Shown piece after piece: positions 4,204-64,000 of a stretch of DNA of 64,000 nucleotides (position 1 is its first letter; every line of letters begins with the position of its first letter). Origin of the DNA: Ilex aquifolium (Eukaryota; Streptophyta; Magnoliopsida; Aquifoliales; Aquifoliaceae). The DNA is taken from assembly GCA_951799425.1 (NCBI GenBank), contig OX637410.1, forward strand, positions 806,001 through 870,000, read 5' to 3'. The notes beneath the pieces were generated by a model, which was given only the letters and a program-made list of their open reading frames with translations, was not told the DNA's origin and did no database searches. Made by a program: the position numbers and the translations under genes.

Positions 4204-5900
4204 TGATGATTATAGAATATTGCACATCATGCATCTCTATTGTACCCATATTACTTTTTTTAAGGTGAAAATTGGGGGAAATGGCTTCAAATTCACAATT
4301 AATGGATATTTGTGTGATTGTAGATAAAAAATATGTAGGGTCATGTGTAATACATCCCATCAAGTTCTCAAAGTCAATGGGGAAGAAGGGACCGCTTAAC
4401 AGATGCCTTGGGACCTCAAGGAACCAAGGAAATCTCAAAGTAGGACAAAACCTATTGATAAAAGGCAACTAAGACCTATCGGTAGAAGTCATTCAAAACC
4501 TACCGGTAGAAAATGTTACTGGAAATCTTATACCTCTGCCATGCAAAAATCTGCAGGTAGAAAAGCTTACTAGAAAAAACCTACCGATAGGTTTTCTACG
4601 TTCTACTGGTAGGTTTTACCTAGATCTGCCAGACACCTGTTCACACGACTCCACCTACTCCGGGGACCCACCTCTTATCCTCTAAATCATACCCTGACAT
4701 GTTTGACACCCCATGATACTCTCCTAACACCTAAAGTCAGATTTGAAATAAGAGAGAGGGGAGAAGCAAGAGAGAGAAGATGGGTGGTTGGGAAAGCATG
4801 GGAGGAGCATGCTTGGACTGATTTTGCTTGTTCAAGTGTCCAACCTCTCTCCAATCATTCCAATTAAGTTCACACATGCTAAGGGAGAGATGATGGATGA
4901 AATTGACAAGAATTACACCATTATTCAGATTTTACATGCTTTTAGAGAGAGAAGCTGCAAGGTTGAAGATCAAGTTTTAGAGAGAGAAAGTTGTGTTTTT
5001 ACATTTCCTTCACCATTTTCATTGTCGTAAGCTTTATTTTACTTGTAATCTTTCTTTCTTTCACTCTAAACTCTTTTATTCAAGTTGTAATCAAGCTTAG
5101 CTAAGTGTTCTAGCATTTTCATTTCTACATTTGGGTATTTTGTCTTCAATCTTTGTATTTTGGGTATGAATGAATTTGCTCTTGTAGTTTAAACCCTTTT
5201 ATGCATTAATAAAAGTTTCATGCTTCATTTCACTACCATGCTTCTTTACATTATGTTTGTTCTTTCCTTTACTATGAGTAGCTAGACTTTTAGATGGCTA
5301 ATCTAAGGGAAATTTCCTCTTGGATATGTGAAATCGACTCTCTTTCATTCTTCCTCGTAGTGTAAAGTATTTGGTTTGACTAGGTTGAGTGCGAACGTGG
5401 TTGTGGGCTCTTGATACACCATAGACTTGTCACGGGTTATGCTTTTTTCAAACGTAACCACATTAGTTCCTCACTTCCTACGAATCAATCAAATACCAAG
5501 ACACCATTGGTTGAATTAATTGAGTTGATTTGAAATTCCCATTGGATTGACCCCTATGGATTAGCCAATCTTGTTTTCTTGTATTTGTCTCAAAACACAA
5601 CTCACCAAAACCTAATTCACAAGACTTTCCAATTTTCATTTCTTTACAAATCACCCTTCAAAGCATTTGACATTTCCTTCCCTAAGGAGACGAGCTTGGA
5701 ATACCCTTCCAAGTAAAACACGACATTGCAAGTCTCTCTACGCTTCGAGAGCACTTTTGCACACACACATACGTTTTTGTCCACACACGATTTTTTCCAT
5801 TTCTTGCATTTGAACCTGAGGGAGAGTGACACTCACCAACTTTTATAAGCCATATACATACAATCCGGGCTCATGTTTGGAGATTAGGGAAAATGATTCA
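4204..5900 (+). repeat. Ath-1 3' LTR (about 1.7 kb)
   Basis: The LTR starts TGATGATTATAG right after the PPT; the starts of the other Athila-like LTRs here (TGATGAGAGC, TGATGAGCAC) are similar. Its U5 half matches the reverse of the NA-2 and NA-3 LTRs, including a conserved block near 5680-5725 (AAGGAGACGAGCTTGGAATA and following). It ends TGATTCA at 5900, where Tekay-like LTR sequence resumes. Small ORFs inside it are not genes. Confidence 0.75.
4476..4612. repeat. CTACCGGTAG palindrome cluster in the Ath-1 LTR
   Basis: A perfect 10-bp palindrome CTACCGGTAG lies at 4500-4509. One-base variants surround it: CTATCGGTAG near 4477, CTACCGATAG at 4581 and CTACTGGTAG at 4603. They lie about 270-410 bases into the LTR, probably in U3. 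The same palindrome recurs in Ath-2 and, importantly, in two Tekay-like LTRs. Confidence 0.8.
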
Positions 5901-6711
5901 AGCAAAAAATTTCATATGCCTTTGGATTGGGAGGTAGCCTATTTTGGAGATACCCTATTGAGCGTGGCACACCCTTTATGGGGATAACATTTCAGGTGCG
6001 GGACAAGTGCTAGTGAACGGCCCTCATATGGGACCTAGTTGAGAAGAAACCGACATGTGGCTTTGAGCTTGCATTTTGTAAAACAATGGTGTAAATTATT
6101 TTGGATTTGTAGTAGTGTTCAAATGGTTGTGTAATGAACCTTTATGGACTATATTTTGTGTAAAATTTGATGCTATGTGAGTTTGGATAAATGTTGTATG
6201 AGATTGGGTGAGTTGAAATTAAAAAAGGATTGAATTGGGAAAAAATTGGGCCTTGCTACCGGTAGCACGTTGATTATCTACTGGTAGCACAATTGTAGTG
6301 GGCAGCTACTGGTAGCTCGTTTCGCGGGCAGTGGGCTCAGCTACCGGTAGCTCGCTGATAGAAGGCTCAGCTACCGGTAGCAAGTACATGACCTACTAGT
6401 GGCTCCTCTAAAATTTTTAAAATTTCAAAATAACTTTGCCAAACGTGTTGGCCTTGAGCTCTTTTGTTCAAAGGATGTAAATGGAGTAAAATTAAGGAAA
6501 AATTAATGTATATTGGACCTTGGAATGGTCAAGTGATTGAAATGTATACAGGTTATGCATTTGGGAGTGCCCGGTACCAGAGGGACTCTGCAAAAACTCT
6601 GTGTTGGTTATGATGATGTAGTGTCTGGTTATGCGGCATTCACGGGTACTTTCGTTGGTTGATGGGTGATCAACGAGTTGACAAAGAACCCTTGGTTTTA
6701 GGGGCATCACA
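5901..6711 (+). repeat. Tek-A LTR, 3' part only
   Basis: The sequence matches the second half of the long Tek-A LTR at 51870-52419: the GTAGCCT...ACCCTATTGAGCGTGGC block near 5930-5970, the TTTCAGGTGCGGG word, and the end GTTGACAAAGAACCC...GGGGCATCACA. It is not followed by a tRNA-Met PBS, so it is a solo LTR whose first part lies before the Ath-1 insertion, outside the window. It sits inside the env-like region of Ath-2. Confidence 0.75.
6255..6381. repeat. GCTACCGGTAGC palindromes in the Tek-A LTR
   Basis: Perfect 12-bp palindromes GCTACCGGTAGC lie at 6255-6266, 6340-6351 and 6370-6381, with CTACTGGTAG variants at 6288 and 6306. The relative position in the LTR equals that of the CTACCGGTAG cluster in the other Tek-A LTR (26730-26898). 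In the Tek-A copies at 34465 and 50069 this position instead holds two copies of a CCCGG-containing repeat. Confidence 0.8.
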
Positions 6712-6756
6712 CTTGAGCTATAAGAGGCCTGAGCTCTCTAAGATTGACTATCCCAT

Positions 6757-7575
6757 GTGAATTTTGTAGCCAAAGACTCTTCTGAGTACACTAAGAAGAT
6801 GTATGAGAGGCTGATTACCATTTTGCTTAACAGAATCTTGCACTACAATGTGTACCCCAAGGGCTTTGAGAAGAAGCAAGGGATGCCAAAGATTGTGCTT
6901 TTACATGAGTTTATGGCAGGGTCTAGGATCGACATTACCTTGATGATTTGGGGTATGTTGAGAGACGACTGCATGACTAGCAGACTAAAGGGGAACATGC
7001 CCTTTGTTAATATGATTACCAAGCTCTGCTAGGGATTTGGGGTGAAAAAACTGGCATCCGACATCCTTCGACCTCCTGAGTTAGGCCCGATTAGTAGTGT
7101 AGGGGAGGGGAATAGGTCCATGATGTCAAAGGCGAATAGGTCTAAGAGTAAGAGCAAGGTTTCTCCTCCTACTGCTACTTATGCTACTGAGACTGTCCAT
7201 ACCTCTCTAGACATTGTGACCCAGATAGTGAGTAAGTTGGAGGAGAAGATAGGTGGTATTGAGAGTGAGGTGAGGGTGGCTAGGCATGCTTAAGAGAGGG
7301 TGGAATTGAAGTTGGACATGTGTGTGAGGATTTTGAAGAGGCTGTTTAAGGGGGTTTTCCCAGGAGAGACAATTCTAGGGGGGACTATAGCACCTGCTTC
7401 TACTTCTACTCCTACTCCTACTGCTGGGCCAGTGTCTGATCCTATACCTGCTACACCTCTTAGTGTAGCAATGGAGAGTAGTGAGGAGGAGAAACTTCTA
7501 AGGAGGAGGATAAAGATAATGAGGAAGGGGATGCTTCTGATTCTCAGTGATGGACTCTTGGACCTATTTCTTTAA
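6757..7575 (+). pseudogene. Ath-2 env-like ORF (putative plant transposon protein domain)
   Basis: A single frame of 273 codons is broken by two stops (7030-7032 and 7291-7293). It aligns with the Ath-1 env-like protein: HYNVYPKG against HYNLLPWG, FMAGSRIDITLMIWG against FMSGKRIDIAFMIWE, and in the C-terminal part LKRLFKGVFPGETIL against the FERTFPGEPLL word of Ath-1. A Pro/Thr-rich linker and a basic end replace the acidic tail of Ath-1. The N-terminus is cut by the Tek-A LTR ending at 6711. Two diverged copies with the same domain order support this being a real protein family carried by the lineage. Function unknown. Confidence 0.65.
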
Positions 7576-7870: not shown

Positions 7871-9309
7871 TGATGAGAGCATAATATTGCATATCACAGG
7901 CCTCATAGCATTCATATTGGCCATGCTAGTTTCTCAATTCCTTTGTTTTTGTTTAATTTTGTATTTTATGGAGAAAATTGGTGTTTGCAAGTGCACTAGT
8001 GTAAAAACAAGGTTTTACACATGTTTCAATGCTATGGAGGACTTAGGGGATGATTTAGGAGATCCAGGGGTCAAGCCAAGAGCAGTACAAGCGTAACTGA
8101 AGGAAAAGTCTGTTCTACCGGTAGGTCTTCTACTGGTTCAACTTGAGGCAAAAATCGTTTCTACTAGCAGAAGCTCATTCCTACCTGTAGAAGTAAAATA
8201 AAGACTTGTTCTACCGGTAGGTTTGAAACAGAATGGTGTTCTACCAATAGAAGAGAAGAGCAACCAGTTCATGCAAAACGGTGAACAGTTCTACTGGTAG
8301 GTCATTTTGTGCTTTCTACCAGTAGATTACTGTAATTTTGCTACGAAGACTCCTAAGGAAAGTAATATGCTGAGTTATTTTAAAGTCCATGATTGGTGGA
8401 TAAAAGAGAGTATTTTCAGCAGAGAATCTCCTATAAATACCCAAGCCTACCCAAGAAAGGGGGATCGGTTCTTTCATCGTACAATTCACTGCAACATGAC
8501 CTCTTCTCTCCTAGGGTTTAGAATTAGTTTTTCTTCTTGTAAGAGTTATTCTCCATTGTTTCAATTACAAGTTTTGTTCAAGTTCAAGTTCTTTAATTCT
8601 TGCAATGCTATTACTTTCAAGTCTTGCTTTGTGAACTTTTGCTCATATTTTCAATTCACGTTTTATCTGCTTTCAATTACAATGACGCTTTCTTCAATTG
8701 CTTTCATTTTTAATTTTATAATGAGTGAGTAGTTGTACTTCGATTTGATCGGATGAGGGAGTCTCACATGTGAATAGAGATGTTGACCCAGTTAGGGTTT
8801 TTCCAATGATTGAGTTATTTGAGTTTTTTGAATGATTAAAGTTGAAAACACTTTCGATATGTATATCTTCTTGTTTACCCGTAGACAGTTAAGTCTAGCA
8901 AAGGTAATTCTTGGAATCACTACAATCAAAGTGAATGTAATTCTTGCAAAATCAAATCAATTGATACATTTGTTATTTACAATTGGGTGTTAATCGAATA
9001 TTTTACGTTTGAGTGCATTTGAGTACAATCTCAAGTGAGTTATAGAAATTGGGTCAAAAATACATGTTCATGGTGAGATGAACTCTGCCGATTAACCAGT
9101 GTTTCCTTTAATTGTTAGTTCTTACACAATAATTTCTGCAACCAAATCCTCAAAAATTTAGAGTTTTTATTTTCTTTTTCCTATCACTCCTTGAACCAAT
9201 CATTTTTCTTGAGGAGATGACCTTGGTAACCAACCGAGTTACAAACGCGATAAATTTCCAATGCTTGGAAATTCTTTGATAATTTAACCCATTTCCAAGA
9301 GAGCAAGCA
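7871..9309 (+). repeat. Ath-2 LTR
   Basis: The start TGATGAGAGCATAATATTGC parallels NA-2. A TATA box (TATAAATA, 8432-8439) lies about 560 bases in. CTACCGGTAG palindromes at 8115-8124 and 8211-8220, with several one-base variants up to about 8330, lie upstream of it, in U3. The U5 block near 9205-9240 (GAGGAGATGACCTTGG) matches the other Athila-like LTRs. The right edge, where Copia LTR sequence begins, is set only to within tens of bases. The 141-aa ORF at 8307 is a chance ORF. Confidence 0.6.
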
Positions 9310-13620: not shown

Positions 13621-14704
13621 ATCCATGTTCGTATCGTACAACCACGCAAAAGATAAAATACCAACAAATATCTCACATAAACAACAATTACACAAGTCCC
13701 CAATTCACCCTCAAAGTCTTGTTTCTCAAGCATCCTTACAAAGAACCTCCTGAGAAGGAATGAGCATCCTTACAAGGAACCTCTCACTCATGTTCCTCCA
13801 AACAACCAAACAAGAAATACGATATCCACAATTTCCTCAATTTCAAACAATTCCATAAACCCCCAATTTTCTGAAGTAGTTGTACAAAGAGCAATATAAG
13901 AAAATGTACAAGAGATCATCATAAATACCATTTTTTTGTTCAATATGAAACACTAAAGTTTTGAAATCAAGAACCTATGAGTAATCAAACTTTGGAATCA
14001 TTACAAATGAATATTAAGTTTATAGTATATAAAAAAATAAAGGCGCACCAAGCTTGAAAATCATGGACAAATGAGAAATTAAGATTTAACGGAACAACCA
14101 TGTATGAAAATAAATAACAACGACTATCAAGGTGTGAAATCAAGAACAAATGATTATGAAGCTTAGAAATCAAGACCAAAAGGACACTCAAGTCTTGGAA
14201 CCAAGAATAAAGAATATCAAGTTTAGAATTCAAAATAAAGGAACAATCATGTATTGAAATCAATAACCAAGGAAAAGTCAAGAGAAAAACACATTTCCCT
14301 TGAAGACTAGGGTTTGGTAGCAATCAAGGAGATTTAAGGATTACCCAACAATCACAATATTTTCCACATGGCATTAATTGCAAGAATAGCAAGAATTAAG
14401 GATTGGATAGCATACATATAACATTTAGAGTGAAGAGATACATATAAATAAACCTAGCCTCAATGTAAAAGAATGGAAGAAAACCCCTACCTTGCTTCTT
14501 AATTTTTGTGTGAAGAACTAGAAGATTTGATCCTTCCCACTTGAATCAACTCTTGAATTTCTTGTTTTCCCCTTCTTTCCTTCCTCTCTAAGCCTCTTTA
14601 TGGTTTGCATTGATGAAATGGGTGCAAATGGAAGAGAAAACACCCAAAACACGCCTGAGTCGTGAAGCCCTCGGTTTGGCGCATCCGAATGCATGTTTTG
14701 TGCT

Positions 14705-14776
14705 GTCCGGACGCGTGTTTTTGCGTCCAAGTTTCTGCCATACACGTCCGGACGCGTGTCTATTCCCGTCCGGACG
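14705..14776. repeat. GTCCGGAC palindromes in the Tek-B solo LTR
   Basis: GTCCGGAC at 14705-14712 and the longer CGTCCGGACG at 14745-14754 and 14767-14776 (22 bp apart). The same core occurs in the unrelated LTR of NA-1 (19786 and 26356). Confidence 0.8.
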
Positions 14777-15286
14777 CGGGTGACAATATACTCTTAACTT
14801 CCCGATCAATTTTGACCTATTTAGAAGCCGATTCAGAAAATTTTCGTCAAATACACTTTTGTAGCCCATGAAGTCTTGTTTCTACTGTCCAAAGTTCAGA
14901 TCAATTGGAGTTAGGAGTAAAAATTTATGGCTAAAGTACTAAGGTAGTATCAACTTCCTCCCCATCCGAATTCTTTCTAAAATGTGTTTCAACTCCGGGA
15001 TACTTCCTAACTTCTAATACACCCTATATTACCTCTCCCAAGTTTTCTCGATCTTCCGGATTCAATGGAAATCTTATTTTGACCTAAAAATATTTAGAAA
15101 CTTATCTAACAACCTTTTCCAAGTTTAAACGCATTCGAAACTAAAACTTCACAATCACTTTGTCTCCCTAGTATTTATTCCTACTATTACAATCTATTTA
15201 GTTTATTCTTACATCATTGCTTATATTAGAATTACTAGAAAATTATATTACTATATTAATCTAAACATGTGGGGGTTTACAATTTT

Positions 15287-19725: not shown

Positions 19726-19733
19726 TATTTATA
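19726..19733 (-). promoter_or_regulatory. TATA box of the NA-1 LTR promoter
   Basis: Minus-strand TATAAATA, about 355 bases from the LTR start, with CCGTCCGGACGG palindromes 53-92 bases upstream in the sense direction. The partner LTR has it at 26296-26303. Confidence 0.6.
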
Positions 19734-19785
19734 GGCGTGGGAAGAGACATGGGCAAGTGGGCAACTTGTATTCTGACAATGGTGA

Positions 19786-19817
19786 CCGTCCGGACGGCAG
19801 TCCCACCGTCTGGACGG
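19786..19817. repeat. CCGTCCGGACGG palindrome pair in the NA-1 LTR
   Basis: CCGTCCGGACGG at 19786-19797 and the one-base variant CCGTCTGGACGG at 19806-19817, starts 20 bp apart. The identical pair in the other LTR is at 26356 and 26376. Confidence 0.85.
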
Positions 19818-24811: not shown

Positions 24812-26656
24812 TGATTCGCACTTTTTAGTGTGTCAGAATTATATTATTATATTACACCCAAGTATAAGTGGTCGAATTGTAGTTTTCTTGGTTTTTGAGT
24901 CCAAGTATCGATCCCACAGAGAGTTTTAGTAATTAAAATAAAATAAAATAAATAAAATAAAAATAAAGCAATAAAAAGGTTGTTTGGAGTAGTTTGATGT
25001 TTGATTGCTTGTGGTGTGAGCTTAGTCTAATGACGGTGTTAAAAACTTGATTCTAAAACAACAGGTGGAATAAAGGTGCAGAAATAAAATGCGTAAGTAA
25101 AACAGATTAATGACAGAAATATAAAAGATATCCTTCAGTTCAAGGATCCCACATGCTTTACATCGGTCTTGTTACGGAATTGCTACCTCACATCAGTTAA
25201 CTTCCATTTTACTGGCAAGCTAACCGGCAGGTCTGATGTATATATATATTATAACACAGCTGCTTCTTAGGCTACACTGGGTATATTTATGTCAAATGAT
25301 TAACCCAAGCAAACCAGAAGGACAAGCCATTCATGAGGAATACTTGAGTTATTCACTTGATCTCATGATTGCAAATACGTATATATATATAATAAACCAT
25401 AACACAGCTGCTTCTTAGGCTACACCGGTGGTAATATATAGCACAGTTGCTTCTTAGGCTACACTGGGCTTAGATGTTCCAATTGATTAATTCAAGTAAA
25501 ATCCGCAGGTGGTACAGACTATCTTCCGGCGACTTGTCAGGTCAACCGGTGGTAGTTAATCATAATACAGCTGCTTCTTAGGCTACACTGTATTTAGATA
25601 TATCACCCAGAAAGTGAAGTTACTTGAGCGGCATACTTGAATTATTCAATAGGTTATCTTGTAATATTTATATATATATATATATATATAGACAGTAGAA
25701 CTTCCTCAGCGTTCCAGTGTAGGACTAGCCATACTGAGAGGATCACCGGGGTTATTCCAGCAGGCAATATTATTATATATATAATACTACCAGGCGTCAG
25801 TGGAACTTCCTCAGCATTCCAGTGGAGGATTAACCATACCGGTAGGAACGCCGGGGTCATTCTAGCTGGCCCGTCTTGTATATATAATAAACGTATACAT
25901 AAAACATCAGCAATTCCAAAAACAGATCAATATTATACATGTGTTCCCCTCGAACCGGAGGATATACGGAACTACTCACGCTCCATTGCTATAGACAAGC
26001 AAGGAGAGCTAGCAGTTGTCATTACAGCAAAAAGGAAAGTGCGGAATTTAAATGTCTTTCGCAGGGAATGATTGAAACACAGCCACTCTTATAATCGGTT
26101 AAGATGAAAAAGTGGCGGCAGTTCAACTATTCGAATTGAAAGCTATACAAAAACTATAAAAGTACAGGACTTAGGACTGAAATATAACACGGACCGGAGC
26201 GTGCTTTTTCTTTTTCTTTTCTCTCTTTTTCTTCTCTGAACTTCTCCTTGGAAGCTCTTGGTTCCGGCCTGCTTTGAATGCTGAAGGGGGCAGGGTATTT
26301 ATAGGCGTGGGAAGAGACATGGGCAAGTGGGCAACTTGTATTCTGACAATGGTGACCGTCCGGACGGCAGTCCCACCGTCTGGACGGTGGTGCTTTGCTG
26401 GAGATGCAAGTTGCATGTTATGGCTTATCCTTGTGATGAAAATACGCTTTGGTCCTTTGTTCTTTCAAGCTTTGACACTTAGTACTTCCTATCTTGTAGT
26501 ATTCCTGCATTAAACATGAAACTTTGGACGTAAAATGTAAAAACTTTTAATTTACATACAAATTATAATTCATAATATTTACTACTTTTTAGTTATTTTA
26601 TTACACTAATTTGACTTTATTAATAACTTTAATTTATACTTAATTAGGGTTAATCA
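24812..26656 (-). repeat. NA-1 5' LTR (sense), 1845 bp
   Basis: Partner of 18161-20086, with one copy of the 80-85 bp unit, a slightly longer TA run near 25670, and palindromes at 26356 and 26376. ORFs inside the LTRs occur in both copies only because the copies are nearly identical. Confidence 0.9.
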
Positions 26657-26661: not shown

Positions 26662-28839
26662 ATAGGCCTAGCAAAACATTTCAAAATTTTAGATTTTAAC
26701 AAAACCTACTAGTAGAAAATGTGCAAGATCTACCGGTAGAAAAGGCTACTGGAAAAGTTCTACTGGTAGGTTTATCAAAGTTCTACCCATAGGTTTAGCC
26801 ACTAAAAAAGTTCTACTGCAAAAGCGTGACGTTCTACCGGTAGGTTTAACCTTTTGGACAAGTTCTACCAGTAGAAGAGCTCGTCGTTCTACCGGTAGGT
26901 CTTACCAATTTTCGCCCGTTTCCATCCTTTTTCAATTTCAATTCATTCCAACCTTGTACAACACCAACCCAACTCATATAACATGACATTTTAAACAAAA
27001 TACAGTTCATACAAGTTCAATACAATCATTTACAATAATAAATGTCCAAAAACTAAAGTATATCTTAGTTTTACAAAAAACATCGTTTAAAAGCCACATC
27101 TCAGCTTTTCTTCAACAATGAGGCCCCGAGTGAGAGCCGTCCACCAGCGCATGTCCTACACCTGAAATGTTGTCCCCATAAAGGGTGGGTCATGCTCAAT
27201 AGGATATCTCCTAAAGAGGCTACTCCCCAACCTAGATGCATATGAAATGTTCACATGCAATTTCAACAAACAACAATTAATCCATTCCAGAATATGCAAT
27301 TCATAACGGATTCTCTATGCCATGCCATATTATGAGATGAAACTCACACATGCAACTCAACTCGAGCCTTTACCGGCTCCCATCACCCATGCAATGCCAT
27401 GAGTATAAAACTGGGCATTCCAAGCCCTTGCCACTAATATTGCACATCCAAAGGCTTTTTTTAAAAATAAACCATGTGTCTTTGTGGGGTAGCGGGATTT
27501 TGGTGTCTCACCACCGGTTCCGCCTACCGATACACTTTTTTGAACTTTCACCGGTGGAAGTGTATAAACCAGTAATTGGGTCATGAACCCGATGGAGTAT
27601 CTAGCCCTTCTTGCTATACCCGACACAAGTTTTTCATGCAACCATACGACTCTGTCGAACCTTGGTCCGACTGTACTGAGCCCACTTATCAACTACCAAG
27701 GATGGTGTTTGATCCAACAACATGCACACACACCCACACTCATGTCAAATGCCCAGGAATGCGGTGTTTCCCATGCTTATGCAAATGGATATGTACAATT
27801 TGCAATTCTCATCATTATGCAACTAAGATCTCAATTGCAATTTTAACAACATGTTCCATATGTCATGTGCACAATATGAACATTTCAATAACATCAATAA
27901 TCACAATGTCAATATATCATATGTATATACCAACATCAATCCCAAGCATGTTATTCCATAATCTATGCCAATAACACACTTAATTCACAAAGGCAAATAT
28001 AAACACATAGCATGCCCACATAACACCATTTTCCAAGAAATTACAAGCCATCAATTTCTACACACCAATTCAAGCTAGAATTGATTTTTACCCATTTCAT
28101 CAATTTAACAACACTAGGCAAGTGTTATACATCTCTAACAACCTACTCATTCCATATCACAACCACCTAGTTAGGGAGAAAACCCTACTTCTTGAAGCAT
28201 AAAACAAATGTAGAAAACCTTCAAGATCACCAATGAAGCCTTAGCCTTTAATTTTTCCAAAATCCCATTTTTGAATTTTCAGTGAAATCCGTCCTTTTTG
28301 GTATGGTTTTGTAGCCCTGGACAAGTAGAACAACTTTTGTTCTTGGCTTGAGTCGATTCGAGCAACGTAGCGCCGTAGATCGTAGAAAGAAGGTAGAGTT
28401 TCCCTTTCTTCTTTCTATTTTTTGGATAATCTGATGGGTATGGTGAGAAATCTGATTTTTTTCTCCTCTATTTCGCCACATGTTCTATTTTACCGGGTCC
28501 GATTTTGACCCGAATCGATTAAATTTCGTCCTGATTCAAGTTCAAAAATATTTTTATATGAACTAGCTTTAAATTATTATCCAATTTTCATAATTTAATT
28601 CCCGGGTTCGTTTATGAGGTCACCCGACACCCGGTCACCTCATAAAACGCAAAACATTTGACTGTCTCATAATTCGACGAAAATTATCTGGGTAACTAGA
28701 CTTCGCGAGAAGAATCCAACGGTGAGGTCCATTTTTTCATCCGAGTTCTAGAAAAATTCAAATTTTCAACTCGTACCATAGTGATAATTTACTGTTTTGC
28801 CATTTTTCATAAAAATTCAAAATTTACCGGGGTTTTACA
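26662..28839 (-). repeat. Tek-A LTR, second piece, continuing from 18160
   Basis: Matches the Tek-A solo LTR at 34465-37136 (for example CACCTGAAATGTT, then GAGGCTACTCCCCA...CTAGATGCATATG). It ends TTTACCGGGGTTTTACA at 28839, the reverse of the LTR start TGTAAAACCC. With the first piece the LTR was about 2.46 kb before NA-1 inserted. ORFs at 27350-27974 and 28248-28481 are LTR sequence. Confidence 0.8.
26730..26898. repeat. CTACCGGTAG palindromes in a Tek-A LTR
   Basis: Perfect CTACCGGTAG at 26730-26739, 26834-26843 and 26889-26898, with variants (CTACTAGTAG near 26706, CTACTGGTAG at 26760, CTACCAGTAG near 26865). This is the palindrome of the Athila-like Ath-1 and Ath-2 LTRs, found here in a chromovirus-type LTR. 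Confidence 0.85.
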
Positions 28840-40938: not shown

Positions 40939-42803
40939 TGATTGATGAAAAATGTTGTTGTTTCCTAACCCCTAAACATCACCATTTGACATGTGTATAT
41001 GGCTTATGTGTGAAAGGGAGTGTCACTCTCCCTCGGGGTGATGCAAGAGATTAGGCAACAACGAATTGAGGATGGAATGAATGAAAATGTAAATGAAATG
41101 CGGGTGTGTGAACAAAAGTGCTCCCCAATCGCAAGGAGTCTTTTGCGTGTCGTGTTTTACTTGGAAAAGTATTCCAAGGTCGTCTCCTCAGGGAAGGAAA
41201 GGTCGAGTAGTGTGAAAGTGATTTTGCAAAAGGAAAAGAAAATGTAAAATCTTTTGTTTGTGTTTTGGTGTTTGTGTTTGTGAATGAAAATGCAATAAAA
41301 CAATTGTTGGCTAATCACAAAGGTTCACTCCAATGGGAATACCAAATCAACTCAAGCCTTCCTCCAATAGAGCCTAGAAGTACGATTGATTCGTGGGAAG
41401 CTCGGGACTAAAATGGAGGTGAGGATTCAAGCATACCCCGTGACAATGCCTACGGTGTATCAAGAACTCACAACCATGTCCTCACCCCAACCCAGTCAAA
41501 CCGAGCCATCATACTCTGAGAGGAGGAATGAAAATGAGTTGAAGTGGCACACCCAAGAGGAGTTTTCCCTTGGATTAACCAACTTAAAATCTAGCTACTC
41601 ATAGTAAAAGGAAAGACATGCATAATGTTAAGAGACATGTAGAAGAAATGAAGATTAAAACTTAACTCAATGCAAGAAAACTTAAACTAAGAAGAAAAAA
41701 ATATGCAATACCCATTTTAAGCTTGAAATGAAGAAAAACTTAATACAACAATGGTAGATTCAAGAGTATGAAACTAAACTTGCAATAGACTTGAAATAAA
41801 TAAGATTAAAGTGCAATAAATAAAGATTACATGATATCTAAAAGCTTACTACACTTGAAATGGAGAAGAGAATGCAAAACATAAATTTCTAGCACTATTC
41901 ATTGTCTTCTTCCTTGGAGCATTCTAAGCTTAGGTAGCCACCCCTTTACAATGTGTAAAATGCTGAATATAATGGAGAGTTAGCCTTCAATTTTCGTGCA
42001 TGGTGGTCCCCCCTAGCTGTGTGCAGGCCTCCCATCAATAGGAGGCTAAGTTGAAGCTTGGACAGGCTAGGAGAAGGTTAGCCTGCAACTCCCCTGGCAG
42101 CCCCCTTCAATCCCCTCTTCATTAATGCCATTGCCTCCAAATGTCTTCAAGTAGGGTGTAGGAGGCATGGTTGTAGGGATAAAATGTCGGGTTAGGTGTG
42201 GGAGAATCAATGGTGGGACCCCCAAGCAAGTGGAGAAGAGTTTGTAGGTGTTCTGGGAGCGTACCGGTACTGTGTACCGGTACTCTAAACCTTCTGGAGT
42301 TCGAAGTACCGGTACGCAGTACCGGAATGGTATAGTACCGGTACTGTTTTCTGTTCCGGACCACTTTTCGTAGAATCGGCATAACTTTTGATCCAACCGT
42401 TAGATTGAGCTAAAATTTTGACAAAATATAGAAAGCATCCAGATCTATAACTTTTATGTTTTGAACTTTTTCATATTCGAAGTGGATCATGGTCAAAATG
42501 GAGGAAAACCGAGGCTCTTCAAACCAGTGGTGTGGCAGCTGGCGCCTTTGTTACCGAACACCAATACCTCCTTGATTTCTTCACTTTTAAGCCTCCAAAT
42601 CTTCATGTAATGTGTCAATGCCCTCACCACACATCCAACATAGTTGCAAGGTCCTAAAATACATGATTTAAGCTATAAAAACATGCAACATCGAGAATTC
42701 AACATTATTCATAAAATCGGCTAACTCTAAGCACTTAGATGCAAAAGTTGAGTTAAAATACATGTAATGAGGCCTTGAAATATACAATATTTTGTGCTCA
42801 TCA
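40939..42803 (-). repeat. NA-2 3' LTR (sense), 1865 bp
   Basis: Plus-strand ends TGATTGATGAAAAA and GTGCTCATCA. Conserved U5 words near 41165-41200 (AGTATTCCAAGGTCGTCTCC) recur in Ath-1, Ath-2 and NA-3. A U3 block at about 42378-42510 recurs in NA-3 and at 63735-63850. Frames at 42067-42396 and 41020 are LTR sequence. Confidence 0.9.
42261..42344. repeat. GTACCGGTAC cassette in the NA-2 3' LTR
   Basis: GTACCGGTAC starts at 42261, 42274, 42306 and 42335, with a variant GTACCGGAAT at 42319. Starts are spaced 13, 32 and 13 bp, and the 32-bp interval holds CTGGAGTTCG. The Tek-B LTR has the same design at 48607-48672. Confidence 0.9.
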
Positions 42804-45825: not shown

Positions 45826-45934
45826 AAACTAAAACAAAATATTTACAAAAGAAACGACATACCTTGGCCTGTGATGAAAATCACGAGACTTACCATGCCG
45901 CCCAAAATCACCCTTTGAACTCAACGCTTTACCT

Positions 45935-45952: not shown

Positions 45953-45955
45953 AAA

Positions 45956-47803
45956 TGATTGATGAAAAACGTTGTTGTTTCCTAACCCCTAAACATCACC
46001 ATTTGACATGTGTATATGGCTTATGTGTGAAAGGGAGTGTCACTCTCCCTCGGGGTGATGCAAGAGATTAGGCAACAACGAATTGAGGATGGAATGAATG
46101 AAAATGTAAATGAAATGCGGGTGTGTGAACAAAAGTGCTCCCCAATCGCAAGGAGTCTTTTGCGTGTCGTGTTTTACTTGGAAAAGTATTCCAATGTCGT
46201 CTCCTCAGGGAAGGAAAGGTCGAGTTGTGTGAAAGTGATTTTGCAAAAGGAAAAGAAAATGTAAAATCTTTTGTTTGTGTTTGTGAATGAAAATGCAATA
46301 AAACAATTGTTGGCTAATCACAAAGGTTCACTCCAATGGGAATACCAAATCAACTCAAGCCTTCCTCCAATAGAGCCTAGAAGTACGATTGATTCGTGGG
46401 AAGCTCGGGACTAAAATGGAGGTGAGGATTCAAGCATACCCCGTGACAATGCCTACGGTGTATCAAGAACTCACAACCATGTCCTCACCCCAAACCCAGT
46501 CAAACCGAGCCATCATACTCTGAGAGGAGGAATGAAAATGAGTTGAAGTGGTACACCCAAGAGGAGTTCTCCCTTGGATTAACCAACTTAAAATCTAGCT
46601 ACTCATAGTAAAAGGAAAGACATGCATAATGTTAAGAGACATGTAGAAGAAATGAAGATTAAAACTTAACTCAATGCAAGAAAACTTAAACTAAGAAGAA
46701 AAAAATATGCAATACCCATTTTAAGCTTGAAATGAAGAAAAACTTAATACAACAATGGTAGATTCAAGAGTACGAAACTAAACTTGCAATAGACTTGAAA
46801 TAAATAAGATTAAAGTGCAAGAAATAAAGATTACATGATATCTAAAAGCTTACTACACTTGAAATGGAGAAGAGAATGCAAAAACATAAATTTCTAGCAC
46901 TATTCATTGTCTTCTTCCTTGGAGCATTCTAAGCTTAGGTAGCCACCCCTTTACAATGTGTAAAATGCTGAATATAATGGAGAGTTAGCCTTCAATTTTC
47001 GTGCATGGTGGTCCCCCCTAGCTGTGTGCAGGCCTCCCATCAATAGGAGGCTAAGTTGAAGCTTGGACAGGCTAGGAGAAGGTTAGCCTGCAACTCCCCT
47101 GGCAGCCCCCTTCAATCCCCTCTTCATTAATGCCATTGCCTCCAAATGTCTTCAAGTAGGGTGTAGGAGGCATGGTTGTAGGGATAAAATGTCGGGTTAG
47201 GTGTGGGACCCCCAAGCAAGTGGAGAAGAGTTTGCAGGTGTTCTGGGAGCGTACCGGTACTGTGTACCGGTACTCTAAACCTTCTGGAGTTCGAAGTACC
47301 GATACGCAGTACCGGTACACAGTACCGGTACTGTGTACCGGTACTGTTTTCTGCTCCGGACCACTTTTCGTAGAATCGGCATAACTTTTGATCCAACCGT
47401 TGGATTGAGCTGAAATTTTGACGCAATACAGAAAGCATCCAGATCTACAACTTTTATGTTTTGAAATTTTTTATATTCGAAGTGGATCATGGTCAAAATG
47501 GAGGAAAACCGAGGCTCTTCAAACTAGTGGTGTGACTGCTGGCGCCTTTGTTACCAAACACCAATACCTCCTTGATTTCTTCACTTTTAAGCCTCCAAAT
47601 CTTCATGTAATGTGTCAATGCCCTCACCACACATCCAACATAGTTGCAAGGTCCTAAAATACATGATTTAAGCTATAAAAACATGCAACATCGAGAATTC
47701 AACATTATTCATAAAATCGGCTAACTCTAAGCACTTAGATGCAAAAGTTGAGTTAAAATGCATGTAATGAGGCTTTGAAATATACAATATTTTGTGCTCA
47801 TCA
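45956..47803 (-). repeat. NA-2 5' LTR (sense), 1848 bp
   Basis: Partner of 40939-42803. Its palindrome cassette (47251-47344) has six units: GTACCGGTAC at 47251, 47264, 47309, 47322 and 47335, and a GTACCGATAC variant at 47296. This is one more perfect unit than the other LTR, so the cassette has changed within one element's lifetime. Confidence 0.9.
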
Positions 47804-47808
47804 CCTTA

Positions 47809-48823
47809 CAAGGAACCTCTCACCCTCTCGGTCTTATTTCTTTGGCACGAGCATCCTTACTAGGAACCTCTCACCCTCACTGTCTTATTTCTTTGGCATG
47901 AGCATCCTTACAAGGAATCTCTCACCCTCTCGGTTTTATTTCTTTGGCATGAGCATCCTTACAAGGAACCTCTCACCCATGTTCATCAAAACAATCATAC
48001 ACGAAATACAATATCCACAATTTATCCAACACAACAAGCCATTCCCGAAAATCCCCAAATTTCTCATAAAGTAGCACAATATAGACAAGGTGAGAAAATA
48101 TACAAGAGATCCTCATAAAATATCATTTTGTAGTTCAATTTCAAGCACTAAGGTTTTCGTATTCAAGAATCAAGGAAAAATTAAGAGAAAAACCCCTTTT
48201 TCTTGGGAACTAGGGTTTGAGACCAAGAAAAGAGTTTCAATTGTGATTCCACCATAGCATTGTTTAAAACATGACCACATTGGCATAAATATCAAGAATT
48301 AACAATTTCATAGCAAGTATATAAGATTTAGAGTGAAAATAATGTATATATATGTATGCCCTAGCTTCAATGCAAGAGAGTGGAAGAAAACTCCTACCTT
48401 GAATCAAGGTTCCAAAGCCAGACCCAAGCTCTAGTGATCCCTCCTTCCCTTTTCTTTCCCCTTTGATCTTCCTCTAGGGTCCTAAGAGATGTGGGCTGAG
48501 AGTGAAATGAATGAAATGAGAGAACATGAAATGAGAAGGGTGTTTTAAACATGCCAAATCCCGATTTCTACTGTTCACTAAAAAAAATCAGGAAGTCTGC
48601 CAAACCGTATCGGTATATGTACCGGTACGCTAGGACTACTGGAGTTCGGCGTATCGGTACGCGTACCGGTACACTTTGCCTAATTCTGCCCAAATGCTCT
48701 GTGCATTCACATTTCACATTTTCACTCCAATCCAAACCCTTCCAACACCAACCCAAGCCTATACAACATGCATTTGTATATCAAAATAGTTGGTACAAGT
48801 TCTATTACATGTGGGGGTTTACA
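47809..48823 (-). repeat. Tek-B 3' LTR, proximal piece
   Basis: Resumes the 51-bp array, then aligns with the second half of the solo LTR at 12689-15281 and ends CATGTGGGGGTTTACA at 48823, the reverse of the sense start TGTAAACCCCC. Confidence 0.85.
48607..48672. repeat. GTACCGGTAC cassette in the Tek-B LTR
   Basis: GTATCGGTAT at 48607, GTACCGGTAC at 48619, GTATCGGTAC at 48651 and GTACCGGTAC at 48663: spacing 12, 32 and 12 bp, with CTGGAGTTCG in the 32-bp interval. Same architecture and spacer word as NA-2. Confidence 0.9.
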
Positions 48824-57454: not shown

Positions 57455-59724
57455 TGTAAAACCCGGGAAAATTTGAACTTTTTATAAAAAAAAGGGCAAA
57501 ACGGTAATTTGCCACTACGGTGCGGGTTGAGAACCCTTATTTTTCTAGAGCTCGGAAGATGAAATAGACCTCACCATTGGATTCGTCTCGCGAAATCTAG
57601 TTACCAAGATAAATTTCATCGAATTCCGAGATAGTCGGATTTTTCATATTTTACTAGGTGGTCGAGTCTCGGGTAACCCAAAAAACGAAATTTTTATTAA
57701 AATTTTGAAAATTGGAAAATAATTTAATTAAAGTTCATATAAAATATTTTGAGCTTAAACCGGTACGCAATTTAATCGTTTCGGGACGAAAACGGACCCG
57801 GGAAAGGGGGAGCGTGTGGCGCGACATGGGCCAAGCTTTGAAATTATAAATAGAGACTAAAAATCTGATTTTCTGCATTTCTATTCTGTTGGGTTTGCTG
57901 GTTGTAACGTTGGAGAGAGGAGGAGAGGAAAAAGAGAAGATTCAAGATTTCTTTCTCTGATCTACGGAGTTCCGCTGGCAGGAATTGTTCGAGCCAAGAA
58001 TTAAAGTCGATCTACTCGATGAGGGGCTACGCTCACGTACCAAAAAGAGTGAATTTCACCGAAGTTTCCGAGACGGAATTTTGGAGAAATCAAGGTTTGG
58101 GCTTGGGGGTGTATTCTTGGAGCTTACCAACATTCTTTTACGCTTTAAGAAGTAGGGTTTTCATCCTAACTAGGTTTATTTCCAACCTATGATGAATATA
58201 TGAATGGGTGGGCTGTTTTGTGTATTTTAACACTTGCCTATTATAGTTGGTTTAATGAAAATGGGTAGGCTCAATTCTAGTGTGAATTGGTAGTTAGAAA
58301 TTGCTAGTTTGTGATTTCTTGGAAGTTTTGATAATTGGGTATGTAGAAATCATTTAACCTGATTTTTTTTTTGAGTTAGGTGATAAATTTGGGCATTTTA
58401 TGTGATTACATGATTTGGTGCCTTGAAGGTGTTTGATAAAATGCATATGTGAAAGAAAGTGTGTTAATTGGATGAGATTATGTGATAACATGCTTGGATG
58501 ATGTGGTAAAGTGAAATCATATGCTTATGATATGAATTACAATTGGAAATGTAAATGTTGATATGTGCTTAAGATATATTGGCATTGGGGTGAATTATGA
58601 AAATTATTTTCTTAGGATGTAATTATCCATGTCATGTGTTGAAATGTGGTAGAAATAATTCATATGACATTCATTTCATATGGATATGATATTGATGTTG
58701 CAATTGCTCATTACATTGCATATGCACAGAGGCATCACATTCATGGGCATGAGACATGAGTGTGGGTGTGTGTACTTGTTGTTAGGTCAAACACCATCCT
58801 TGGTGGTTGACAAATGGACTCGGTATAGTTTGACCAAGGTTCAACAGAGTCGCATGGGTTGCATGAAAAACTTGTGTCTAGTATAACAAGAAGGGCTAGA
58901 TACTCCCTCGGGTGCAAGACCCGGTTACTGGTTTATACACTTCCGTCAGTGCAAGTCCAAAAGAAGTGTATCGGTGTGCAGAACCGGCGGTGCGACACCA
59001 AAACTCCGCTACCCAATAAAGACACATGATTTTGTTTCATACAAAAATGTCATCGGATGCATAACATCAATGGCGGATTTATTATACATTGGCATTGCAT
59101 TGTGTCGTGGGAGCCGGTGAGGGCTCGGGTTAAAGTGCATGAGTGAGTCTCATCTCATTTCATGGCATGGCATGGTAGAATTCCAACATTGAATTGCATA
59201 TCCTTGTTTAGGATGGTTGTTGCTTGTTGAATGTTGCATGTGACATTTCATATGCATCTAGGTTGGGGAGTAGCCTCTTTAGGAGTTATCCTATTGAGCG
59301 TGGCTCACCCTTTATGGGGACAACAATTTCAAGTGCAGGGTACACTCCAGTGGAAGGCTCTCACTTGGGGCCTCAAGGATGAATAAAAGCCGACTTGTGG
59401 CTTTTAATTCACATTTTGTAAAACTATTGTGAAAAACTATGTTTTTGTAAAACATTCGCTAAGTTAGTTTTGGGCAGGTAATGTATGTAAAGGAATTGTA
59501 ATCGAACTCATATGGACTAATTTTAATGTAACATTGCATGTTATTATATGAGTATAGATAAATAGACCCGTTGTGGTCAATATTATTCATAAATGGACCC
59601 GTTGTGGTCAATGTTGTATGATTGCACATGTTGTGTTTTGGGTAGAACTCTCCATACAAAAGAGACTCTGCCCGAATTTTGTTAAATTATGGATTCCGGC
59701 AAATGCGGCATAACAGCGTGATAT
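57455..59724 (+). repeat. Tek-A 3' LTR, cut at its end
   Basis: Aligns along its length with 50069-52319, with scattered substitutions and small indels, a TATA box at 57845-57852 and the doubled GACCCGTTGTGGTCAAT unit near 59565-59610. It breaks at 59724, where a new LTR start TGTAAAACCC follows. Confidence 0.9.
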
Positions 59725-60141: not shown

Positions 60142-60418
60142 AAACCTTCCGGAAGGTTTGAGCAGGAACAGTTGAATAAAGAGGTCAACAGGTAAAACCT
60201 TCCAGAAGGTTTATTCCAGTAGACAAAACCTTCCGGAAGGTTTCACTCCAGTAGGCAAAATCTTCCGGAAGGTCGATGAAACCTTCCGGAAGGTTTTGCT
60301 TATCGCCTGAGGCAAAAAATTCCAATAGGCAAAACCTTCCGGAAGGTCAATGAAACCTTCCGGAAGGTGTTGCTCACTGGAATAAAACCTTCCGGAAGGT
60401 CGATGAAACCTTCCGGAA
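60142..60418. repeat. TTCCGGAA palindrome array
   Basis: Eight perfect TTCCGGAA cores plus one TTCCAGAA variant, the first inside the 18-bp palindrome AAACCTTCCGGAAGGTTT (60142-60159). Three pairs have starts exactly 21 bp apart (60263/60284, 60337/60358, 60390/60411), with spacers resembling GTCGATGAAACC. TTCCAGTAG words occur between pairs. The NA-3 LTR carries the same pairs. Confidence 0.9.
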
Positions 60419-60622
60419 GGTATTGCCTTTTGCTGCAAAACCATTCCATTGCTTTTAAAAAAAAATTCTCAACCAAACCAAATCTCCTCAACTCCAAAAC
60501 ATTTTAACACCCTTTCTAAGACATATAACCTATCAAAAACTTGAATCACACATATATACATGAAAATAAAAACAAAGAGGGCTAACTACTATGTACATTA
60601 AAACAAACAAAGAGGGCTCTTG

Positions 60623-61615
60623 TCAATCCGGCATCAATTCGGATATGACCTTGCGCCCATGGATTTTCTTGATTTTAAATTTTTTTTGTTGCATCAATGC
60701 CCTTTCTATCCAATCTATCCAACAATATAAGAGATAATTATTCAAAAATCTCAACCAAACCAAGATGTATGCGAGTTTATGTAATGCAACAAATGGAATA
60801 TACAATTTCTCATTAAGAACACTTGACTCCATTTCAATGCCCTCCCCAAGTTGAGAAATGTGAATCTCAACACCACTCAAAGATGGCAAAATGACCTTGG
60901 GCTCATTAGCCTCATATGAGATAATAACTTCATTAAATGTTTCACAATCTAGAGTGGTGGGAGATTCAACATCAATATGCATTTCATTGGGGGGATCATT
61001 CTCAATACATTGACTATACTCAAGGTGTTGTTCTTCATGCATAGGAATTATAGCATTAGTCAATATATCAAGTTGATCTCCAATTTCAGAAATTTGTTGG
61101 GCTATTTGGGCATTGAATTCCATTTGGCATTGCATAACCTCATAAAAAGTATTTTCCAATGCTTGTACGGTTGGGTCCTCATATGTTGGATAATGGGGAG
61201 ATTCATTTGGTGGTGTGAGATCGGATGACCAATCATGAGGTTCATTCTCCCAACCATAACTCGAATAACTCGGTGTAACATAATGGTTAGGGTAAAAAAT
61301 TTCGGAGGCCAAATTTGAATTTGAACCTTCGCATTCAAAGTGTTGAACCGGATAATTTATTGGGCATTCACTAGTGAGGTGTCCATTTTCACCACAAATT
61401 TCGCAAACGTTTCCAAAATAAGGGGCATTTATAGGGCACTCACTAGTGATGTGTCCATATTCACCACAAATCTTGCAAACGTTTTCAAAATAAGAGGCCA
61501 TTCTTGGGCACTCACCAGTAATATGCCCATACTCATCACAAATCTTACACACATTTTGCAAATTTTGGGCATTATATACATTTCCATAATAATTAGAAAA
61601 CATTACAAAACACAA
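60623..61615 (-). CDS. NA-3 triple zinc-knuckle protein, 330 aa, no capsid domain
   Basis: An intact ORF, roughly 78 percent identical to the NA-2 protein by eye, with the same start region, the same three CCHC knuckles at residues 23, 47 and 71, the same long words (SEIFYPNHY, TPSYSSYGWENEP, HIDVESPTTLDCE, GVEIHISQLGEG) and a short extra segment before the LDxLTNAI word. It ends ELMPD, close to the ELKPD of NA-1. The ORF is open although the element has lost its 3' half. Two diverged copies with open frames suggest the protein was under coding selection while the family was active. Cellular role unknown; RNA or DNA binding through the knuckles is an inference. Confidence 0.8.
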   Translation of the reverse strand: MCFVMFSNYYGNVYNAQNLQNVCKICDEYGHITGECPRMASYFENVCKICGEYGHITSECPINAPYFGNVCEICGENGHLTSECPINYPVQHFECEGSNSNLASEIFYPNHYVTPSYSSYGWENEPHDWSSDLTPPNESPHYPTYEDPTVQALENTFYEVMQCQMEFNAQIAQQISEIGDQLDILTNAIIPMHEEQHLEYSQCIENDPPNEMHIDVESPTTLDCETFNEVIISYEANEPKVILPSLSGVEIHISQLGEGIEMESSVLNEKLYIPFVALHKLAYILVWLRFLNNYLLYCWIDWIERALMQQKKFKIKKIHGRKVISELMPD

Positions 61616-61725
61616 ACTAAAATAAAATATTTACAAGTTAGACGACATACCTTGGCCCGTGATGAAAATCACAAGACTTACCTTATGCCGTCCCAAAATC
61701 ACCTCTTGAACTCAACGCTTAACCT

Positions 61726-61743: not shown

Positions 61744-61746
61744 AAA

Positions 61747-63652
61747 TGATTGAATGAAAACCGTGTTGTATTCCCTAACCCCTAAACATCATCCCTAATT
61801 GTGTGTATGGCTTATAGGAATGGGTGAGTGTCACTCTCACTCGGAATGATGCAAAAGATTAGGCAACAATGGAATGGTGATGGAAATGAATGGAATGAAC
61901 AAAATGTTATGAAATGGAATGCGTGTGTGGTGAACAAAAATGCTCCCCAATCGAAAGGAGTCTTTTGTGGTCGTGTGTTTTACTTGGAAAATATTCCAAG
62001 GTCGTCTCCTCAGGGAAGGAAAGGGAGTTTTGTGAAAGTGATTTTGCAAAAGTGAAAAGAAAGTGTAAAATCTTGTATTTGTGTTTTGTGGTTGTGTTTA
62101 TGTATGGAAAATGAGAGAAAACAATGTTGGCTAATCCAAAGGAAGTCACTCCAATAGGACTACCATTTCAACTCCAATCCCTCCTTAACTCCGATAGAGC
62201 ATGAATGAACAATTGATTCGGGGGAAGCTAGGGATGAGGTTGGTGATGATCTAAGAATAAACCGTGACAAGTCTACGGAATATCAAAGGCACCAATTCAT
62301 CCACTCTCAACCCCGTCAAACCGAACCATTGGACTCTTAAGGGAGGGAGGAGAATGAGTTAAAATGGAATCCCCAAGAGAAATTTTCCCTTGGATTTACC
62401 AACTTAAATCTAACTACTCATGGTAAAATGAAAGACAAGCATAATAATGTAAATGGATATAATGAAGACATGAAGCATGAAGCATGAAACTTAACTCAAA
62501 GCAAGAAATCTTAAACTAAGGAGAAAAATATTCAATACCCATTTTAAGCTTGAAAAATGAAGAACTTGAGCAACAATGGTGAAATGTAAATGGTGTATTG
62601 AAACTTGCAAAGTACTTGAAATAAATGAGATTAAAGACAATAAATGAAACTTACAAGGTTCTTACATTAAACTACAAGTGAAAGAGTGGAAGAAAAATGC
62701 AAAAACGTCACTTTGAGCACTATTCATCATCTTCCCCCTTGGAGCTTTCTATATCTAATCCTAAGCTTAGGTAGCCAACCCCTTTTCTTGTGTGTTGAAT
62801 GTTGAATGTATAATGGAGAGTGAGAGCCTTGAATTTCGTCCATGGAGGGTCCCCCTAGGTGTGTGCAGGTCTTACACCAAAGAGGGGCTGAGTTGATTGC
62901 CTTGGACAAGCTAGGACAACACCCCCATGGTAGCCCACTACCCTCCCATGCCTTCTTCAATACAAAGCCTCCAAAGTCCTCCAAATGTGTAAGGGAAGCA
63001 TGTGCTTGTGTAAGATAATGTTGGGGAGCAAGTGGGAGAAGATTAGGTGGGACCCCCAAGCCGAAAAGTTGAGTTGCAGACTGTTTTTCACATTCTGGGC
63101 AAGACCTTCCGGAAGAACGATGACAACCTTCCGGAAGGTTTAACCTACTGGAATCTGGTGACAGCTCTGGACCAGTTTTGGTAGAAAAATAATAAATTTT
63201 GATCCAACCGTTGGATTGATCTGAAATTTTGACACAATAAAAAAGACATCCATATCTACAACTTTCATGTTTTTCAATTTTTCAAATTCGAAGTAGATCA
63301 TGGTCAAAATTTAGAAAAAAAGTGGTACAGTGTCAAAATTACGAAATTCCAGTGGGCTAAACCTTCCGGAAGGTCATCATAAACCTTCCGGAAGGTCTTC
63401 ATCCAAAATGCATTTTTCTTGATTTCTTTGCCTTCCAAGCCTCTCAATCCTCATTTCATGAGTCCACCACTTCACCTCACATCCAACATAGTTGCAAAGT
63501 CCTAAAATCCATCATTTAAGCTATCAAACACATGCAACATCAAAATATCAACATTATTCACAACTTTGGCTAACACTAAGTACTTAAATGCAAAAGTTGA
63601 GTTAAAATGCATATAATGAGGCCATCAAATATGCAATATTTTGCTCTCATCA
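61747..63652 (-). repeat. NA-3 5' LTR (sense), 1906 bp
   Basis: Plus-strand ends TGATTGAATG and GCTCTCATCA. It aligns with the NA-2 LTRs over most of its length, including the U5 word CAAGGTCGTCTCCTCAGGGA near 61998 and the U3 block near 63195-63310, but the palindrome cassette differs. ORFs at 61828-62149 and 62727-63059 are LTR sequence. Confidence 0.85.
63107..63392. repeat. TTCCGGAA palindrome pairs in the NA-3 LTR
   Basis: TTCCGGAA at 63107 and 63129 (22 bp apart, spacer with CGATGA) and at 63364 and 63385 (21 bp apart), with the flanking words CCTACTGGAAT and ATTCCAGTGG. The Tek-A-type array at 60142-60418 has the same core, phasing and words. Confidence 0.9.
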
Positions 63653-64000
63653 CCGGTTCATGAACCTACTGGAATATTGGTACTAGTACCCATACCATTT
63701 GGTACTGGTACCCCGGTATTTTCCATTGTTGACCATGATCCACTTAGAATTTGAAAAGTGCAAAACATAAAAGTTGTAGATATAGATGTCCTCTATCTTG
63801 TGTCAAAATTTTAGCTCAATCGGACGATGTAATCAAAAGTTATGACAAACTACAAAAATTGGTCTGAGCTTTCATTAAAGCTCACTGCCATCGAGGTACC
63901 GGTACCTCATCACTAGGTACCACAGTTAAAAAAAAAATAAAAAAAACTTGGGTCAAAGTCGGGATTTGATTGAGAATAACCCACACTTTCCACTATATCT
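63653..64000 (+). repeat. Athila-like LTR fragment in plus orientation
   Basis: A block at 63735-63850 is the reverse complement of the U3 block of NA-2 (42378-42510) and NA-3. CCGG palindromes lie on both sides: GGTACTGGTACC at 63702 and the 16-bp GAGGTACCGGTACCTC at 63893-63908. It abuts the end of the NA-3 LTR and runs out of the window, so NA-3 probably inserted into it. No gene. Confidence 0.6.

Follow-up and report, generated by a model that had tools for sequence, protein, structure and literature searches.

Why should the same short palindromes recur, in arrays, in the long terminal repeats (LTRs) of different retrotransposon lineages? The question is raised by a 64,000-nucleotide stretch of the Ilex aquifolium genome (contig OX637410.1, positions 806,001 to 870,000; here called the window), in which 10-bp palindromes centred on CCGG lie in both Athila-like and Tekay-like LTRs. 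As judged from their organisation, these palindromes are a small set of switchable putative operators used by several retrotransposon lineages.

The window contains 37 such palindromes among a total of 141 CCGG. Only four types occur, as an earlier note on this DNA had correctly counted and placed them: CTA (CTACCGGTAG, 9 exact copies), GTA (GTACCGGTAC, 12), CTT (CTTCCGGAAG, 12) and CGT (CGTCCGGACG, 4). The number expected was 1.4 on average and 5 at most in 200 first-order resamplings of the window. Exact palindromes sit in arrays amid decayed copies. Genome-wide, with exact counts over 800 Mb and the same word reversed as control, we obtained 22,728 against 353 for CTACCGGTAG, 51,910 against 907 for GTACCGGTAC and 23,874 against 931 for CTTCCGGAAG, an excess of 26- to 64-fold. 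A fifth type, CGTT (CGTTCGAACG), is absent from the window and reached 32,359 against 278 genome-wide (116-fold). It was discovered by ranking the 10-bp palindromes of a 314-kb sample, composed of the window and 25 stretches of 10 kb (20 of them hand-picked at round coordinates, the other 5 drawn from a random list). In this sample the five words took ranks 1 to 5, at 97 to 235 times the second-order expectation (calculated with a small pseudocount). For CGTCCGGACG the figures come from samples only, with no genome-wide count (8 copies in the 314 kb, 134 times expectation). When the ranking was made on 200 kb without the window, four of the five words were again prominent, CTACCGGTAG occurring twice. 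Random positions at the expected rate, which the note had held against its own idea, were not what we observed: the palindromes are far above expectation, clustered and at homologous LTR positions. The arrays are real, extreme and unusual, and stronger than first noted.

Two further observations concern single regions. Between 60000 and 192000 of contig C1, twelve CTT arrays occur among the first 100 sites listed, most with eight to ten exact sites; they are often 7.4–7.8 kb apart, a pattern suggesting LTR pairs from a family that was active recently and is packed at one contig end. Locus L026 (C15:5582-15581), near a contig end, is a satellite with a period of about 375–380 bp and one CATTGCAA per unit.

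The five half-sites form a chain, GTACC-CTACC-CTTCC-CGTCC-CGTTC, in which neighbours are one base apart. Five random CG-centred half-sites would be connected by single steps with P = 2.3e-4, or 1.6e-3 when the centre is fixed as YCGR, and the four CCGG half-sites alone give P = 0.022. This points to one recognition system, the specificity of which may have shifted stepwise. Words one base off the palindromes, scored in the 314 kb, frequently carry a C to T change at a middle C on either strand (CTA 18/22, GTA 5/7, CTT 6/11, CGT 4/7, CGTT 3/9). Such changes are in line with deamination decay of methylated cytosine, most clearly in CTA.

The arrays of the window, and the NA-1 LTRs, are the following.

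4476..4612: CTACCGGTAG array of four sites (at most one mismatch); it lies in the 3′ LTR of Ath-1, an Athila-like element, and the LTR flanks resemble other Athila LTRs
6256..6380: CTACCGGTAG array in a Tek-A LTR, near the LTR 3′ end
8115..8325: decayed CTACCGGTAG array in an Ath-2 LTR
14704..14776: CGTCCGGACG array in a Tek-B LTR (group B2)
18159-20086 and 24810-26656: the NA-1 LTRs
19787..19816: CGTCCGGACG pair in one NA-1 LTR, with CTATAAATA at 52 bp distance
26357..26386: CGTCCGGACG pair in the other NA-1 LTR
26730..26898: CTACCGGTAG array in a Tek-A LTR (minus strand)
42261..42344: GTACCGGTAC array in the NA-2 LTR 40938-42804
47251..47344: GTACCGGTAC array in the other NA-2 LTR, 45955-47804
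48619..48672: GTACCGGTAC array in a Tek-B LTR adjoining the integrase C-terminal open reading frame (ORF) 48865-49674 (SH3_Tf2-1)
60146..60419: CTTCCGGAAG array of nine sites (one with one mismatch), internal, in an Athila-type element
63106..63137: CTTCCGGAAG pair in the NA-3 LTR
63363..63394: second CTTCCGGAAG pair in the NA-3 LTR
63896..63905: single GTACCGGTAC in an old B1-type LTR piece

Is an array ever composed of several types? We grouped sites with at most one mismatch and gaps of up to 160 bp into cassettes and obtained 55 from the sampled loci, duplicates L002 and L004 being left out. In this set, which includes near-copies (e.g. both LTRs of one element) and in which L001-L004 and L030-L049 were chosen for carrying such words, all 50 multi-site cassettes (215 sites) were single-type and none of the 55 was mixed. 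Genome-wide counts point the same way. CTACCGGTAG is followed by CTACCGGTAG within 2–30 bp in 6,803 cases; CTACCGGTAG and CTTCCGGAAG are neighbours in 23 + 27 = 50 cases for the two orders, though both words are about equally common. Among these 50 mixed pairs, 41 represent one kind of module with a 32-bp spacing and, in nearly all, a TCCAGT-like word in between.

Comparison of the flanks distinguished three well-sampled LTR groups, A (Tek-A), B1 (Athila non-autonomous) and B2 (Tek-B). Group A has CTA in six cassettes and GTA in five, and CTA and GTA copies are 50–67% identical in the left flank (W48619 omitted from the alignment, and L024_7430, a GTA copy which matches on the right side only, not counted). 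Group B1 carries GTA, CTT and CTA, and its CTA copy L029 is 85–86% identical to the GTA copies L041, W42261 and W47251 in the left flank and 65–66% in the right. Four types, CTA, GTA, CGT and CGTT, are found in group B2, where the CTA copy L003 resembles the GTA copies L023 and L042 mainly on the right (82–83%, compared to 47–48% on the left). Trees made from the better flank need one type change in A, two in B1 (W63896 left out) and three in B2. The types appear from these trees to be inherited by clades and switched occasionally, and are nested within each group's own tree. The alignments agree with the proposal of the earlier note that the palindrome type changes while the rest is conserved, with the addition that often one flank is kept far better. 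Its modular cassette, recurring in unrelated LTR lineages, is likewise upheld: the array switches type in concert.

The palindromes are accompanied by a second, non-palindromic motif, TCCAGT[AG]G (TCCAGTRG). Among its 27 matches with a palindrome within 60 bp downstream, related copies included, 22 lie exactly 15 bp before the palindrome (CTT 6/7, CTA 13/16, GTA 3/4), while none of these matches falls in a CGT or CGTT array. This companion is often midway between palindromes 31–32 bp apart and stays constant while the type changes. Spacing within pairs is 20–25 for CTA, CTT and CGT, 13 for GTA and 18 for CGTT.

To which lineages do the arrays belong? Labels were based on primer-binding site (PBS) words, gag, reverse transcriptase (RT) and SH3_Tf2-1 domains, the PBS word TGGCGCC.. 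being presumably of Athila type and the tRNA-Met word that of Tekay. The Athila features were found piecewise and not in one element, with the TGGCGCC.. PBS in NA-1, NA-2 and NA-3, gag in NA-1, RT and the PF20167 domain in Ath-1, and a weak PF20167 in L014. Those of Tekay are equally piecewise: a PBS beside the LTRs at window 52423, L023 and L010, SH3_Tf2-1 ORFs near the arrays W48619, L009 and L018, and a chromodomain read by eye. In the sample, Tek-A, Tek-B and Athila B1 all carry both CTA and GTA. CTA is also present in Athila with PF20167 and in one more group, F, and GTA in an internal array of Athila. CGT was seen in Tek-B as well as in the Athila-like NA-1 and L006, and CGTT in Tek-B, in group E and in L049. 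CTT is confined to Athila-type contexts (8 of 8 cassettes). Each of the four window types had been assigned by the note to both Athila-like and Tekay-like LTRs. Three of these pairings stand, namely CTA (Athila 4476 and 8115, Tek-A 6256 and 26730), GTA (Athila NA-2, Tek-B 48619) and CGT (Athila-like 19787/26357, Tek-B 14704). The fourth, CTT, does not, since the label of a Tek-A-type LTR for 60142-60418 was rejected: similarity to Tek LTRs does not extend beyond about 60123, and on the other side 60423-60555 shares 82% identity with the flank of an Athila internal array in L014. The LTR lineages, described as devoid of visible similarity, are nearly so, except that stretches of palindrome plus spacer match at 76–82% over 51–72 bp.

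A short U3 block (GTTGTAGA .. TCAAAATTTCAG .. AAAAGTTATG) is also common to the Athila-NA (B1) and Tek-B (B2) LTRs, on opposite strands. It lies upstream of the array, for example at window 47353-47520 (Athila-NA) and 14790-14930 (Tek-B).

The group E repeat with its CGTTCGAACG array has one sharp edge in three places with different neighbours (L014 3151-3985, L010 17-859, L007 9702-10000). L014 had been a candidate for a mixed-type element, with a CGTT array 0.8 kb from its CTT internal array. This was rejected because the sharp end at L014 3985, as in the L010 and L007 copies, sets the CGTT repeat apart from the L014 Athila.

Other observations were made in the window. A Tek LTR pair (50069 to about 52420, and 57455-59724) has no palindrome array; comparison with 6193-6628 places the array segment, as an insertion/deletion, between 52174 and 52337. 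Repeats of 51 bp in tandem flank the NA-2 insertion (40628-41006, 47753-48029), apparently within an interrupted Tek-B LTR. In 36006-36394, beside Tek-related stretches, a CACAAAACAGCCCC-like unit of about 23 bp is irregularly repeated. Non-autonomous Athila-like elements carry a gag-tail ORF with three tandem CCHC zinc knuckles (a 72-bp DNA repeat) at 44860-45828 (minus strand) and 60623-61630 (minus strand); the former has relatives at 68–69% in other sources.

What could require a whole array to be of one type? We consider that the arrays are probably operators for a family of dimeric DNA-binding proteins. Each 10-bp palindrome would be the site of a dimeric sequence-specific protein, and sites would act in pairs and around the companion TCCAGTRG, near LTR promoters and upstream of a second Athila gene. 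At least five specificities, derived from each other by single half-site changes, would exist. Specificities linked in this way suggest that the binders are probably one protein family, and since each array would have to match one member of it, all its sites would switch together. A modular, concerted array, a dimeric factor and a VANDAL-like system, as the note had interpreted the locus apart from its mis-assigned CTT/Tek-A pairing, seem the best fit. Protein binding, an effect on promoters and the identity of the factor are what we infer here.

The leading candidate for the factor would be the protein of the Athila ORF located between pol and the 3′ LTR, which carries PF20167. Two pieces of it are present in the window.

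2959..3642 (plus strand): PF20167 (Transposase_32) ORF piece of Ath-1, E 6e-14, upstream of the 3′ LTR array; candidate trans-acting factor
6769..7404 (plus strand): PF20167-like stretch of Ath-2, diverged and broken (tblastn 31% identity, E 2e-25), upstream of the array 8115-8325

In three Athila copies (L014, L050 and L051) the ORF before the 3′ LTR has an array upstream of it, and a second array lies in the LTR, about 1.9–2.3 kb from the first. Both are of the same type in each copy, CTT in L014, CTA in L050 and GTA in L051, and the three copies are only 57–61% alike over about 1.6–2.6 kb. The domain was identified with E 6e-14 in the Ath-1 window copy and below the curated cut-off in L014; the L050 and L051 ORFs match by tblastn, and relatives of L051 bear PF20167. 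The L051 ORF encodes 396 amino acids; its first 60 residues include 15 K/R and its last 40 include 18 D/E. The same plan is found in two full-length relatives known from other sources, at 54 and 56% identity. The protein has a basic N-terminus, a conserved core, a heptad-like stretch (seen by eye) and an acidic tail. In sunflower, the ORF(+) of Athila 14, with the same domain and at the same place 3′ of pol, is predicted to be nuclear and has no known function according to the excerpted text of PMC11728184, which, unlike the arrangement seen here, describes no palindrome array upstream of it or in the LTR. Same-type arrays on either side of the ORF, the plan of the protein and the nuclear prediction in sunflower are the reasons for naming PF20167 as a candidate binder, a proposal which we make tentatively and which may well be wrong. 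Like VANC in VANDAL, the protein would activate transcription or counteract silencing, and non-autonomous Athila elements and Tekay LTRs, carrying the same operators, would respond to it.

Several results weigh against the operator mechanism or this choice of factor. Only three colinear copies were found and two of them (L014 and L050) have broken ORFs. Ath-2 carries a CTA array together with a broken PF20167-like protein only 30–41% like the others, and the CTA locus L029 shows only a remote PF20167 trace. The CGT and CGTT arrays of the sampled loci were not accompanied by any PF20167 element. Structure prediction from four sequences gave no usable model (pLDDT 33), and a search of PDB sequences for a solved relative yielded one match with E 0.83, which was disregarded. 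The gaps of CTT arrays are near whole helical turns (R 0.84 at 10.5 bp), but helical phasing was rejected as a general rule (CTA R 0.55, GTA R 0.55 with mostly 13-bp gaps offset by 1.7 bp, CGTT R 0.30), and the arrays are related and not independent, so that p-values are too small. The operator mechanism is favoured by CTATAAATA, which follows the array at a distance of 52–53 bp in five cassettes belonging to three types (CTA, CGT and CGTT), although two of these cassettes (52 bp) are the LTRs of a single element. A TATA box beside every array was likewise rejected: in a count made without a control, only 18 of 55 cassettes had, within 250 bp, a TATA-like site that points away from the array. 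None was found between the internal array and the ORF in L014, L050 and L051.

Alternatively, one host transcription factor family could bind the palindromes, the LTR lineages having converged on or exchanged enhancers without any element protein. We regard this as possible, though on the unlikely side. It would account for arrays common to unrelated lineages, including loci where no PF20167 was seen, for their presence in non-autonomous elements and for the TATA box near some of them. However, a host factor alone leaves the five single-step variants and whole-array switching unexplained, and no plant factor with these sites was found among the literature matches listed. LBD transcription factors were tried as binder, as they presumably recognise TCCGGA; the literature search gave no support.

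Could the copies of an array rather be held together by pairing of RNA or single strands? As hairpins, kissing dimers or precursors of small interfering RNA, they would be forced to change jointly; the copies are inherently inverted and direct repeats of each other, and pairs 18–23 bp apart could form hairpins. Nevertheless, the arms of a hairpin must be complementary and need not each be palindromes, and neither the single-step half-site chain nor a fixed companion motif is expected. Moreover, the array lies upstream of the TATA box, and so outside the RNA 5′ end, in L009, where the strand is known (the element with its CGTT array is on the plus strand, integrase ORF 2288-2749), and in L003 and L039, as judged by TATA orientation only. 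Such pairing is an improbable explanation.

Even less probable is neutral turnover, by tandem duplication and gene conversion within arrays and template switching between lineages, with no function. Some arrays are true tandem repeats (L031/L032, with a 43-bp unit) and spacers are similar across lineages, as would be expected. Still, types that differ in their palindrome letters retain the companion and some parts of the spacers, palindromy is perfect at tens of thousands of sites, and two arrays about 1.9–2.3 kb apart are of the same type in the three Athila copies. Finally, simple descent of a larger LTR segment common to the lineages is very improbable indeed: B1 and B2 share the short U3 block, but on opposite strands, the sole Tek-A cassette whose flanks cluster with Athila (W26730) has the NA-1 LTR itself as neighbour, and the types are nested in the separate trees.

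How does a set of switchable operators compare with known systems? The BII boxes of Tnt1 and the heat elements of ONSEN are repeated host-factor sites in U3, as in the arrays described here; to our knowledge each is restricted to one lineage, and we know of no set of switchable types across lineages among them. No plant transposon paper describing these words was found among the full-text and topic matches listed, most subscription papers lying outside the scope of the search. The nearest known system is the sequence-specific anti-silencing of VANC/VANDAL in Arabidopsis, which is alike at the DNA level and of which the palindrome elements are not a member. According to the excerpts of PMC5735166 and PMC10398659, short motif arrays lie in non-coding parts of these transposable elements (TEs), and motif variants change together among related copies (C-type/T-type; CC/AC type). 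Excerpts of PMC5735166 also report VANC6 motifs in the unrelated element AT9TSD1. The differences are clear. VANDAL are Mutator-like DNA transposons, whereas the elements here are LTR retrotransposons, with LTR pairs, PBS, gag and RT. The VANDAL motifs are YAGTATTAY or AGTTGTMC in the same excerpts, in contrast to 10-bp CG-centred palindromes of at least five types in a single-step chain, common to two Gypsy lineages. The trans factor of VANDAL is element-encoded, while the PF20167 ORF is a candidate only.

The proposal can be extended, to a point that we find rather doubtful. The PF20167 proteins of Athila would then be a family of dimeric anti-silencing factors or activators which has moved through at least five one-letter steps, each re-keying all palindromes of the LTR and the internal promoter; non-autonomous Athila and the unrelated Tekay elements would parasitise the activator, and the types would be separate channels of TE control. 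If true, LTR retrotransposons, which make up most of many plant genomes, would have sequence-specific control of the VANC kind, acting across lineages. The orphan Athila protein PF20167 would gain a function, and the switching-on of non-autonomous elements without genes of their own would be explained. The evolution of a DNA-binding specificity could be read letter by letter, each step being represented by tens of thousands of sites, and ready operator/protein pairs may become available.

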